A DNA stretch of 64,000 bases. Source: Gimesia sp. Its GTDB lineage: Bacteria > Planctomycetota > Planctomycetia > Planctomycetales > Planctomycetaceae. The stretch is taken from positions 246,547-310,546 of the forward strand of contig PAJV01000077.1 of NCBI GenBank assembly GCA_002706765.1. Direction: 5' to 3'. A program made the translations under genes and the position numbers. How positions within the stretch are numbered: position 1 is the stretch's first letter; each line of letters opens with the position of its first letter. A model generated the notes under the pieces. It searched no databases. It was not told the origin of the DNA and saw only the letters and a program-made list of their open reading frames with translations. Positions 36,221 through 58,204 of this stretch are shown here, in pieces.

Positions 36221-36313
36221 GACTGTATCCAGTTTTACTGTAACGTCTCCAGGGCATTTGGCCCGAGTATATCAGATTGAGAGACGCTATGGTTAAATGT
36301 GATGCGCTCTAGC
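36221..36313 (-). repeat. Dispersed 94-bp hairpin element, copy A
   Basis: Read on the minus strand it runs from GCTAGAGCGCATCAC to CTGGATACAGTC and aligns nearly end to end with copies at 43,990 and 57,981. It folds as a long stem (TAGCGTCTC with GAGACGTTA, one G-T) with an apical GGGC-CAAAT-GCCC hairpin. It fills the gap between the zinc-ribbon gene stop (36,332) and the maf start. Confidence 0.8.
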
Positions 36314-36331
36314 TGTTTCTATTGATTTACG

Positions 36332-36580
36332 TCAGTTAAGAAAAACGAGAGCCAGAATGGTGGCAATCACACCCAGGGTCCCCAGCAAGATCCACCAGCG
36401 GGGCCGCTCGCTGAAGGGATGGGTATTTACGCCGAGATATTCCCCACAGACAGGACAGGCAGGCGCTTCTTCATACACTTCTGCTCCACAATGAGAGCAT
36501 TCGATGGTTGAAGTTTCCTCATCGAACTCCGATTCGTCAGGGTAATCTGCATCATCGTCTGATTCCCAGTCTTCATTCAT
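36332..36580 (-). CDS. Small tail-anchored zinc-ribbon protein
   Basis: The 82-aa protein has three parts. An acidic N-terminus (about residues 1-26) leads into a double C-x2-C zinc ribbon (CSHCGAEV and CPVCGEYLG, about 28-48) and a C-terminal hydrophobic helix (about 60-80, LLGTLGVIATILALVF). It is therefore probably tail-anchored with the zinc ribbon in the cytoplasm. Its function is unknown; such proteins can act in protein-protein or nucleic acid contacts at the membrane. A strong GGAGG site lies 9 nt before the ATG, which supports it as a real gene. It is upstream of maf on the same strand, with the hairpin element between them. Confidence 0.8.
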   Translation of the reverse strand: MNEDWESDDDADYPDESEFDEETSTIECSHCGAEVYEEAPACPVCGEYLGVNTHPFSERPRWWILLGTLGVIATILALVFLN

Positions 36581-36938
36581 GCTTTGGAACCTCCTGTTGT
36601 AAAAACCGTCCTCAGTTGAAAGGAATGTTCAGTCACTCTACAAAACTGACTGCCGTTTTTTCTGCAATGTACCCGGACAGTCAGATATTCAGCGACAATC
36701 TTGACAAAGAAATATTTTCTGCGTGAGATTCCCTGTCCTTTCGGTATTCAACACTGGAACGCCGGTGTTGCAGAGTTGAAATCCGTTCGGCAACCCGCTT
36801 CCAATTTTTTCACATCGGTATTCATTGATATCGACTCACGAAAAGAGTACCAGCACACCCGCAGTCTATCATGTGCAGGCATCCGTGCGTGCATTCTATT
36901 TTAATCTTATTCACAATTTTAACGACTGGAGAGTCAAG
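36581..36938. other. Intergenic region before the DUF1559 gene
   Basis: 358 bp between divergent genes. It must hold both promoters. Apart from a frame that extends the DUF1559 gene upstream to 36,825 (unlikely to be translated), I see no gene or repeat. Confidence 0.4.
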
Positions 36939-55282: not shown

Positions 55283-55384
55283 GGTATCGAGCCCCTTTCA
55301 GAACAGGGAATCAGAGTGAGTCGGCTCTCATTTAATTCCTTCTTATCCCGGTTTAGTGTCATACTTTACAGACGGAGTCATGGA

Positions 55385-57445
55385 TCAGGCGGCATCGCTG
55401 TTCTTTTTGGTATCGCCGCGAGCAAAAATGCTGGCAACGTACTGCAGGACGTCTGTCGCAGATTCTTCGTCGTAACCATAATTTCGGATGAGCCGTGCTT
55501 TGACGATGTCGATCTTTTCCTGTGTTTCAGAATCGACAACATTCGAAACCAGACTCGTCAGCTTGATCGTATCCTTCTGATCCTCGAACAGTTTCATTTC
55601 GAGGGCCTTTTGCAGACGATCGTTGGTTTTGTAATCGAACGATTTACCATCCAGTGACAGGGCACCAATGTAGTTCATGATCTCACGACGGAAATCATCC
55701 TTCCTGGTGTCCGGGATATCAATTCGTTCTTCAATGGAACGCATCAGGCGTTCATCCGGTTCTTCATATTCGCCGGTGAATTTGTTTTTCACGCGTTCTT
55801 TCTGCGTGTACGCCTTCACGTTATCCAGATAGTTGCCACACAGTCGCGTGAGTGCTTCTTCGTCGGCGGCAATCGCACGCTGAACTTCGTTCTTCACGAT
55901 ATCGGTATACTCTTCCTTCACGACAGTGATGAGTTGACGGTAATGGTCACGCATATCATCGTTGGCAATCAGCGAATGATGCTTCAAGCCTTCTTCCAGT
56001 TCGTTGAGCAACATGAACGGATTCAGGTTGGAACTATGCGAGTTAACCACCAGGGCATTCGAAATTTTGTCCTGCACATAGCGGGGTGAAATTCCAAACA
56101 GACCTTCGGACTTGGCTTCCTTGCGCAGCTGTTCCACGTTTTCCGTAGTAAAACCCGGCAGGGATTTGCCGTTATACAGGTTCATTTTCTGGATTAACGT
56201 CAGGCCGTGATGCTTGGGGGTTTCCAGACGCGTGAGGACCGCCCACATCGCGGCTATTTCCAGCGTATGCGGGGCGATGTGTTTACCACGGACCCGCTTG
56301 GTATTGTAATCCTTCTCGTAAATCTTGACTTCTTCACTCAGCTTCGTGACGTACGGCACATCGATTTTCACCGTACGGTCGCGTAATGCTTCCATGAATT
56401 CGTTGGACTGCAGCCGACGGTATTCCGGTTCGTTCGTGTGACCGATAATGACGGTGTCGATATCGGTCTGCGCGAATTTCTTCGGCTTGATTTTATGCTC
56501 CTGTGAAGCCCCCAAAAGGTCGTACAGAAACGCGACGTCCAATTTGAGGACTTCGATAAATTCGATCAGTCCCCGGTTGGAGACGTTAAATTCGCCATCA
56601 AAGTTAAATGCACGTGGATCACTTTCACTGCCGTACTGGGCGATTTTACGATAATTGATATCGCCGGTCAGTTCGGTGGAATCCTGGTTCTTCTCGTCTT
56701 TGGGCTGGAACGTACCGATGCCGATCCGATCCTGCTCCGAGAAGGTAATGCGTTTGACCACGATCTGATCCATGACTTTAGTCCAGTCGCCATTCGCTTT
56801 TTCAAGTCGTTCATTGAAGATGAAGCGACTGAGCGGGCAGACTTCCCCCGAGATTTCCACGCCGTAGCCGGTATCAGTGTCAGGATCTCGGCCGGCATTC
56901 AGGTAATCGCAGATTTCCTTGCGGTTTACCAGTGGTACCAGCTGCAGCGGGTCACCGTTCATCGGGTCCCAGAGGATCGTACCGTCTTCCTCTTTCCAGC
57001 CGAAACTGTAAAGGGCACCTTCTTCGGTGCGGGAATAGCGTTCGAGCCCCTGCTTCAGCAGGCGGGCGATGGTACTTTTGGAACTGCCGACCGGTCCATG
57101 CAGTAACAGTACGCGGCGTTCACTGCCGTACTTGAGGGCAGCCGACTTGAACACGTTGACCAGTTCCATCAGCGGTTTGGAGAGGCCGAAGATGCCATCT
57201 TTGCCGTCGTTTACGGGGTCGTCAAAGAAGCGATACCGGAGCAGGCCTTTTTTACCTTCGACCGGGTAGGTTCCATAGCTCATGATCATATCATAAACAC
57301 GTTGGAACGCCGTTCGCGTCACCCGGGGATCCTGTCGAACAATATCGAGGTACTCTTCGAAAGAGCCCTGCCAGTGTTCCTGAAGAAATGAGTCCGCATT
57401 CAGCTGACTCGAGATTTGATTTAAGATTGATCGACCATTTTCCAT
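55385..57445 (-). CDS. prkA: PrkA family serine protein kinase / AAA+ protein
   Basis: The 686-aa protein has an AAA+ N-terminal part with Walker A in [13 protein letters not shown] (about residue 110) and the PrkA-specific C-terminal half. Conserved blocks include [20 protein letters not shown] [31 protein letters not shown] and [15 protein letters not shown]. PrkA proteins are described both as Ser/Thr kinases and as AAA+ proteases active in starvation and stress. The ATG at 57445 has a very strong AGGAGGAGGAG site, so I use it instead of the longer frame from 57502. It is the first gene of the cluster with DUF444 and SpoVR. Confidence 0.95.
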
Positions 57446-58204
57446 GGGACTCCTCCTCCTGGCGTAACGAGTGGCATTCCTGCCTGTCGATTTATCGGCC
57501 AATAAGTTCGAGGTAATTTGATAAGGGAAATGTTTCTAAAGTGCGAGAGCCTTTCACTGTGTTCAGAATATTCAGTATCAAACAAGACACGCATGGCGCA
57601 GGGATAGTTCCCTCAATCAAATAAAATTGAATTGAGGTTGTTTAAAGGACCGTCCATGGCCAACACCTAATTGTAAAAGTGGGATTATCGTGTGGACGTG
57701 ACTCGAGCATTTTCAGGGCATGCCACACAGGAATGTCAGGGACCTAATATCATGTTTCGAGCGTTACCATTATTTCCCACGCCATCGTTTGAGACAATAC
57801 CAATATTCAAGTCTGAGATTTTCGTCACGAAAAACGGACACACATAAAAGGCTGTAAGTAACTAATTGTCAACCAGTTAGAAAACATGCCAGAACAAGCG
57901 AGGTTTCCGTGAATGCACGACGGGAACCGCTGAACGGGCAGGTTCGGTGCAGATTAGACAGACTGGATTTACTTTAGATACTGGAGCACATCACATTTCA
58001 CCACAGCGTCTTTCAATCTGTTGAACACGGTCCAAATGACCCTGGAGACGCTACGGTAAAACTGGACACAGTCTAAGAAAGGCAACCCGCTTTCATCGGC
58101 ACTCTTCTTACGAAAAAGGCAGCGGAAACAGCAATAATATTTTTTCGATTTTTACTGTCAGTGGTGACACCGTTAAAAACCAGATGTGTCTACTTCTGGT
58201 GCGA
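57446..58204. other. Intergenic region upstream of prkA
   Basis: About 760 bp. It must hold the prkA promoter. A 10-bp hairpin with one bulge (CCTCAATCAA with TTG-A-ATTGAGG, 57,611-57,637) lies about 165 bp before the prkA start and might be part of its leader. Element copy C is at 57,981. I see no gene. Confidence 0.45.
57981..58073 (+). repeat. Dispersed 94-bp hairpin element, copy C
   Basis: Runs from CTGGAGCACATCAC to CTGGACACAGTC on the + strand. The stem AGCGTCT pairs with AGACGCT and the apical hairpin is GGTC-CAAAT-GACC, perfectly paired. It lies about 130 bp beyond the stop of the convergent ceramidase-like gene. Confidence 0.8.

Follow-up and report, generated by a model that had tools for sequence, protein, structure and literature searches.

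The window analysed here is a stretch of 64,000 nucleotides from contig PAJV01000077.1 (C77) of the Gimesia sp. assembly GCA_002706765.1, and it holds three copies of a short dispersed element that is very probably a miniature inverted-repeat transposable element (MITE). Copy A lies on the minus strand at 36219..36312 (94 nt: C-TA, an 89-bp body with one internal base deleted, and TA), copy B on the plus strand at 43991..44086 (96 nt: C-TA, a 91-bp body with one base inserted in the left repeat, and TA) and copy C on the plus strand at 57981..58075 (95 nt: C-TG, which is a decayed TA, a 90-bp body and TA). These coordinates, converted from those of the contig, run from the base preceding the left TA to the right TA. 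In copy B the left terminal inverted repeat with its TA (TAGAGCGCATCcACATTTAACCATAGCGTCTC, plus strand, 43992..44023) resembles the end of an insertion sequence (IS), and the right terminal inverted repeat, read inward, is TAGACTGTGTCCAGTTTTACTGTAGCGTCTC (minus strand, 44056..44086). A repeat comparison of the window gave 85% identity between B and C over 84 nt and 87% complementarity between A and B over 47 nt.

The first-pass annotation of this DNA had described three homologous copies, and these are present within one or two bases of where it placed them. It gave their shared ends as CTGGA and ACAGTC. With ends set from many copies the element runs from CTAGAG to CAGTCTA, so that CTGGA holds for copy C but not for A and B, which have CTAGA, and the terminal TA had been left off the right end. 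A heuristic gene caller bears out that all three copies are intergenic, although a 114-aa open reading frame (ORF) at 43974-44318 on the minus strand spans copy B in the mechanical ORF list. Copy A ends one base short of the ATG of the minus-strand ORF 35594-36217 and thus forms that gene's whole near upstream region.

What had been called a three-copy element has at least 150 copies in the host genome (G000). A model built from 26 copies gave a full-length match, over all 95 positions, in every one of the 150 candidates scored. As these were drawn from 2411 first-look candidates, the true number must be above 150. A blastn-type search, in which 40 of 195 candidates were scored, listed at least 43 matches. 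A 31-nt pattern for the right end, allowing up to three mismatches, matched 88 times, against none for the reversed control; 83 of the matches are copies among the 150 listed, and the other five comprise three decayed full copies and two matching over the right half only, none of them adjoining a matching left end further off. At a cut of 45 bits there are 13 copies in C77 (310,546 bp), 13 in 400 kb of the relative G014 and 8 in 400 kb of the relative G008. Extrapolation from C77 gives about 330 copies for the 7.9-Mb host genome, so the MITE is probably present there in a few hundred copies.

Among the 59 genomes surveyed, the element is confined to the genus. With stricter filters and 71 candidates scored per genome, the same model found it in all 17 genus genomes, including the host's own, and in none of 42 genomes of other genera. 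All 71 scored candidates matched in each of G000, G008 and G014, with 69 matches in G006, 56 in G004 and a single match each in G001, G005, G009 and G012. The single matches of G005 and G009 occupy one shared place and those of G001 and G012 lie elsewhere; no transposase was seen when the 3.1-kb loci around these four were read by eye. In a named genome collection, which may omit records close to the genome of the window, the exact right end occurs in one contig of a Gimesia metagenome-assembled genome (MAG) and in five contigs of one Planctomycetaceae MAG. Phage and plasmid collections held no DNA match to copy B. What is dispersed in this way is a short, non-coding element of about 90 bp.

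Each copy consists of a body of about 90 bp flanked by two TA dinucleotides. In 30 copies compared, likeness stops abruptly at the element's ends, and the sequences beyond are unrelated. In 110 copies the base to the left is C (85%) or T (12%) and the base to the right A (49%) or G (40%), which defines the target as YTAR. The title of a 1991 paper by Tenzen and Ohtsubo reportedly names TA in CTAG as the target of IS630. In collinear stretches of G000, G014 and G008, six insertions could be read against the empty site of a relative, five of them on both sides, and all are consistent with duplication of TA. One is letter-perfect: the filled site is CAGG-CTA-[element]-CTA-AAGG in G000 and G008 and the empty site is CAGG-CTA-AAGG in G014. 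The other five carry one or more changed letters. Four of these are readable on both sides, namely G008_140520 with G014_150934 (right copy CTG), G014_181860 (empty site CCA), C77_170913 with G014_235570 (left copy decayed) and G008_166221 (TTA and CTA, empty site ATA), and G014_139546 is readable on its right side only (empty site CTG).

The copies in the window are less legible. Copy A is absent at the orthologous place in G014 and G008, and the stretch around copy C is about 100 bp shorter in both, the flanks in each case being too diverged for the junctions to be read (those of copy A in G000 are 83-85% identical to G014 and 81-83% to G008). No orthologous place for copy B was found in the G014 or G008 stretches. 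Other copies, too, are absent from a relative at junctions made unreadable by flank divergence.

We take the duplication to be TA and the body to be 90 bp because head-to-tail copies in G014 are spaced at 92 bp (90 plus a shared TA), because T stands ahead of the left TA and C ahead of the right one in 13 of 103 copies, and because both MITE ends, once TA is removed, start with GA, as do both ends of a Gimesia IS described below. A 3-bp duplication of YTA was set aside on account of the same 13 of 103 copies and of a readable empty site that has A at that position. The head-to-tail copies of G014 form arrays of three and two that share TA, and one copy directly abuts an older, decayed one (L263, 401-679; L269, 201-387; L262, 114-295); the element's own ends thus serve as target sites. 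Two insertions in opposite orientation, at 181860-181954 of the fetched G014 stretch and 166221-166314 of that of G008, lie in the same intergenic stretch of these two species and are both absent from C77 of G000, reflecting either a favoured place or chance.

Insertions differ among G000, G014 and G008. In G014, four places with no relation to one another carry the same 95-bp sequence letter for letter (L258-L261), and there are three further identical pairs. To judge from these likenesses, the family has been active recently, at least in G014.

The terminal inverted repeats are 31 bp long and imperfect: left and right ends agree at 17 of 27 positions, and the inner nine pairs match throughout in the consensus. 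A search with DDE_3 found matches in nine of the 17 genus genomes. Around two of them (L193 in G016 and L194 in G001) lies a 1,025-bp IS, the two being 98% identical to each other, which starts with TAGAGCGCATCACATTTTAG and ends with TAGAGCGCATCACAGTTAA inverted in the context C-TA...TA-G. It carries two uninterrupted ORFs in different frames. ORF B matches the IS630 transposase model NF033545 (transpos_IS630) at 142 bits, against a cut-off of 100, and DDE_3 at 114.5 bits. For ORF A the matches are to HTH families and, at a sub-threshold 45.6 bits, to NF033545. In both loci (1001-2025) the transposase is split between these ORFs around an A-run, an arrangement that suggests a product made by programmed frameshifting.

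The likeness of the MITE to this IS lies mainly in the left end. In its family form this end shares 25 of 27 positions with either end of the IS, for which the binomial P, leaving the TA aside, is about 2e-12, and at one IS end its first 17 positions are identical. The IS sought as parent would have one GAGCGCATC end and one GACTGTGTC end. At E≤1e-10, ORF B has matches in 14 of 59 genomes, four of them among the 17 of the genus (G000, G001, G012 and G016); those of G000, on C21, C27 and C23, are partial and look like relics. By eye, the sequence flanking the relic on C23 (TAGAGTGTGTCACAG...) looks like the MITE right end (TAGACTGTGTCCAG...). An end of the form TAGAGC...TAGCG occurs at seven of 19 fetched loci outside the genus, four of the seven from one genome, the match being loose and with no chance control. 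Other DDE_3 matches number two in G014 and five in G000 (for example C2:3787-4245), with none in G008.

Taken together, these results identify a new family of a well-known kind of element, and not a new structured RNA. We judge with a probability of about 93% that it is a non-autonomous MITE of the IS630/Tc1-mariner type, on the strength of its length of about 90 bp, terminal inverted repeats, TA in YTAR context, single target in empty sites, dispersal in high copy number within one genus, insertions that differ between species, identical copies at unrelated places and a left end like those of an IS630-family IS. Several observations weigh against this. At the target site, TA is intact on both sides in just 57 of 103 copies, and T precedes the right TA in 3 of 17 copies with T on the left versus 3 of 82 with C on the left, which leans slightly towards the 3-bp duplication. 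At the ends, the right end of the MITE matches either IS end at only 17 of 27 positions (P about 2e-4). When 59 genomes were searched with an exact degenerate pattern of a MITE-like right end, there was no match outside the MITE. Beyond the 27-bp ends, blastn finds no likeness between MITE and IS, so the MITE did not arise from it by simple internal deletion. The distribution is also awkward: the copy-rich genomes G014 and G008 have no ORF B match at E≤1e-10, and G001, which has an intact IS, has a single MITE match. Finally, the surroundings of the other DDE_3 matches in G014 and G000 showed no MITE-like end above background, IS relics excepted.

If the element is such a MITE, its life may be pictured as follows. 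A transposase of the IS630 group found in G001 and G016 is predicted to recognise the MITE ends, excise the element and join it to TA sites elsewhere, which is how IS630 elements of bacteria are reported to move; for one of these, ISY100, PMC2170065 gives a normal TA duplication in 34 of 39 insertions. The nested hairpin would reflect that the two inverted repeats are complementary to each other at the DNA level, with no need of a role in RNA, and copies would afterwards decay with their pairing unconstrained. The scarcity of copies inside genes may reflect both the loss of harmful insertions and the greater richness of YTAR sites outside genes. More tentatively, a MITE family with two unlike ends could spread in bursts, with IS630-family elements passing through Gimesia lineages, mobilising the resident MITEs and then being lost. 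Such bursts predict the inverse pattern seen, in which G014 and G008 are rich in copies and have no IS match and G001 has the IS and a single MITE match. A transposase that has escaped recognition, for instance another DDE_3 protein of G014, might instead use both ends, and we regard bursts and this variant jointly as a doubtful proposal.

The alternative that survives best grants that the element is a MITE and adds that some copies have been co-opted as regulatory DNA, either through a promoter-like site, TTAACC-16-TATTAT, or through a hairpin protecting mRNA ends. Location is one argument for it. Among 44 regional copies, a set in which some orthologous insertions are counted repeatedly, genes come from a home-made caller and the C76 stretches were picked for holding copies, 43 are intergenic by gene prediction, a position taken by 16% of random 95-mers and by 38% of YTAR sites. 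Copy B contains the promoter-like site (44008-44035, 9 of 12 positions), the majority consensus retains its letters, and copy A, as noted, sits one base from a start codon. However, the stretch around copy A has no promoter-like site, and the site near copy C starts just outside the element; scanning for a promoter consensus gives weak evidence, and planctomycete promoters may differ. Conservation in 34 regional copies is lower in the core (0.81) than at the left (0.86) and right (0.89) ends. Nor is there a preferred orientation: of the 43 intergenic copies, 29 lie between co-directed genes (17 on the same strand as the genes, 12 on the opposite), seven between convergent and seven between divergent genes, and intergenic bases divide between these classes as 56, 16 and 28%. 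With no clear preference for a strand or for convergent genes, the pattern is unlike that of a terminator. Co-option of some copies seems to us unlikely.

The first-pass annotation had taken the kept pairing to argue for selection or copying of a structured element, naming a REP-like (repetitive extragenic palindrome) or MITE-like palindrome, an RNA motif and a terminator or attenuator as candidates. Of these, only the MITE-like palindrome, of IS630 type with TA duplication, has stood. In favour of an RNA structure or attenuator maintained by selection for base pairing, single copies fold into a long stem, only modestly better than shuffled sequences (z of -1.8 for A, -2.9 for B and -1.2 for C). 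The letters quoted for the apical hairpin are correct, but in copy B its GGTC/GGTC takes two G-T wobbles, not one, and the loop CAAAT, said to be fixed, is conserved at 84-95% at its five positions in the family, like many other positions.

The covariation claim itself found no confirmation in a larger set, 103 distinct 95-bp copies mixing high-scoring, conserved-right-end, regional and relatives' copies; they remained from 125 once 21 that differed in length and a single duplicate had been removed. The four apical pairs have 8 two-sided compensated cells where shuffling gives 8.06 (sd 2.5), and their paired cells number 315 where it gives 316.1; the other apical register (CC/GG) has 5 against 2.75, a value reached in 234 of 2000 shuffles; and the nine inner stem pairs have 4 against 2.6 (sd 1.6), with 818 paired cells against 817.3. 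Only the twelve outer symmetric pairs lean the other way, in the direction the annotation had proposed, with 12 compensated cells where 5.8 would be expected, a count that 6 of 500 shuffles also attained. The three outermost pairs, which comprise the target duplication and the initial base at either end, account for ten of these 12 cells. Common history more probably explains the excess there, mild constraint at the ends being also conceivable. RNAalifold on 26 copies kept seven pairs, one with a compensatory change, so that the 26-copy model is in effect a sequence model. The window has no Rfam match at the gathering threshold, and the 251-bp stretches around each of the three copies contain no terminator-like site. 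Of the two outcomes that the annotation had named as refuting its reading, a lack of further copies did not occur, since copies are abundant, but the changes in the stem do look random. The covariation counts largely refute the RNA reading, which we consider very improbable. The best account of the hairpin is that the two inverted repeats lie opposite one another.

Least probable of all is a REP-type palindrome moved by a RAYT (a Y1 tyrosine transposase). In its favour, the element is a short extragenic palindrome in high copy, Y1_Tnp matches occur in 14 of 17 genus genomes and planctomycetes are said, in PMC3733652, to carry REPs. Against it, the REPs described there measure 20-40 bp and bear a GTAG or CGTC tag that is left unpaired, and the element has TA duplications and IS630-type ends. 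The genome G004 (99% complete) lacks any match to Y1_Tnp and has 56 to the MITE, and in G000 no RAYT-flanking copy was found among the 150 listed, none of which lies on C41, the site of the better Y1_Tnp match, the nearest to the other, on C4, being about 5.5 kb away. A second dispersed palindrome, CCCGAATNNNATTCGGG, occurs twice in the window (12653-12704 and 12879-12930) against 0.01 expected, and at 69 places in the genome, where the pattern in reverse has none; neighbouring places are often separated by a few hundred bases. It is REP-like.

The finding that the element is very probably a MITE accounts for what are probably a few hundred intergenic repeats in each copy-rich Gimesia genome and would keep them from being mistaken for small RNAs, terminators or covarying motifs. 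It also carries a caution, that a palindromic transposon seen in three copies can mimic covariation. Whether a given TA site is filled or empty could be used as a phylogenetic marker in Gimesia, and there is a case for studying how a MITE keeps spreading without its apparent parent.

As far as our literature searches go, the family is not in print: they found no paper that mentions both Gimesia and miniature inverted-repeat transposable elements, and the element does not appear in the accessible parts of PMC3733652 and PMC11588811. Among known systems, the GTAG and CGTC REP families resemble it as repetitive extragenic palindromes found in planctomycetes among others, and differ in their shorter length and unpaired tag where the Gimesia element has 90 bp, terminal inverted repeats and TA duplication. 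The Correia or NEMIS elements of Neisseria, of about 107 or 155 bp according to Table 1 of PMC2229807, share by description its size range, terminal inverted repeats, target duplication and terminal TA; their host differs, and that table reports no IS match for them. The Gimesia IS630 element itself (L193, L194) shares the left end at 25 of 27 positions, the CTAG context and TA at both ends, and differs in its 1,025 bp with transposase ORFs, an unlike interior and the poorer agreement, 17 of 27, with the right MITE end. The closest parallel is the repeat unit of pneumococcus (RUP), for which PMC2229807 gives 107 bp, 108 intergenic copies, TA targets and ends like those of the resident IS630-Spn1. 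RUP belongs to another host phylum and, likened here by description, has another sequence; the Gimesia ends are 31 bp and mutually unlike, and the Gimesia IS with matching ends is absent, at E≤1e-10, from the copy-rich G014 and G008. As TA-targeting MITEs, the two are of the same kind and probably spread in the same way.

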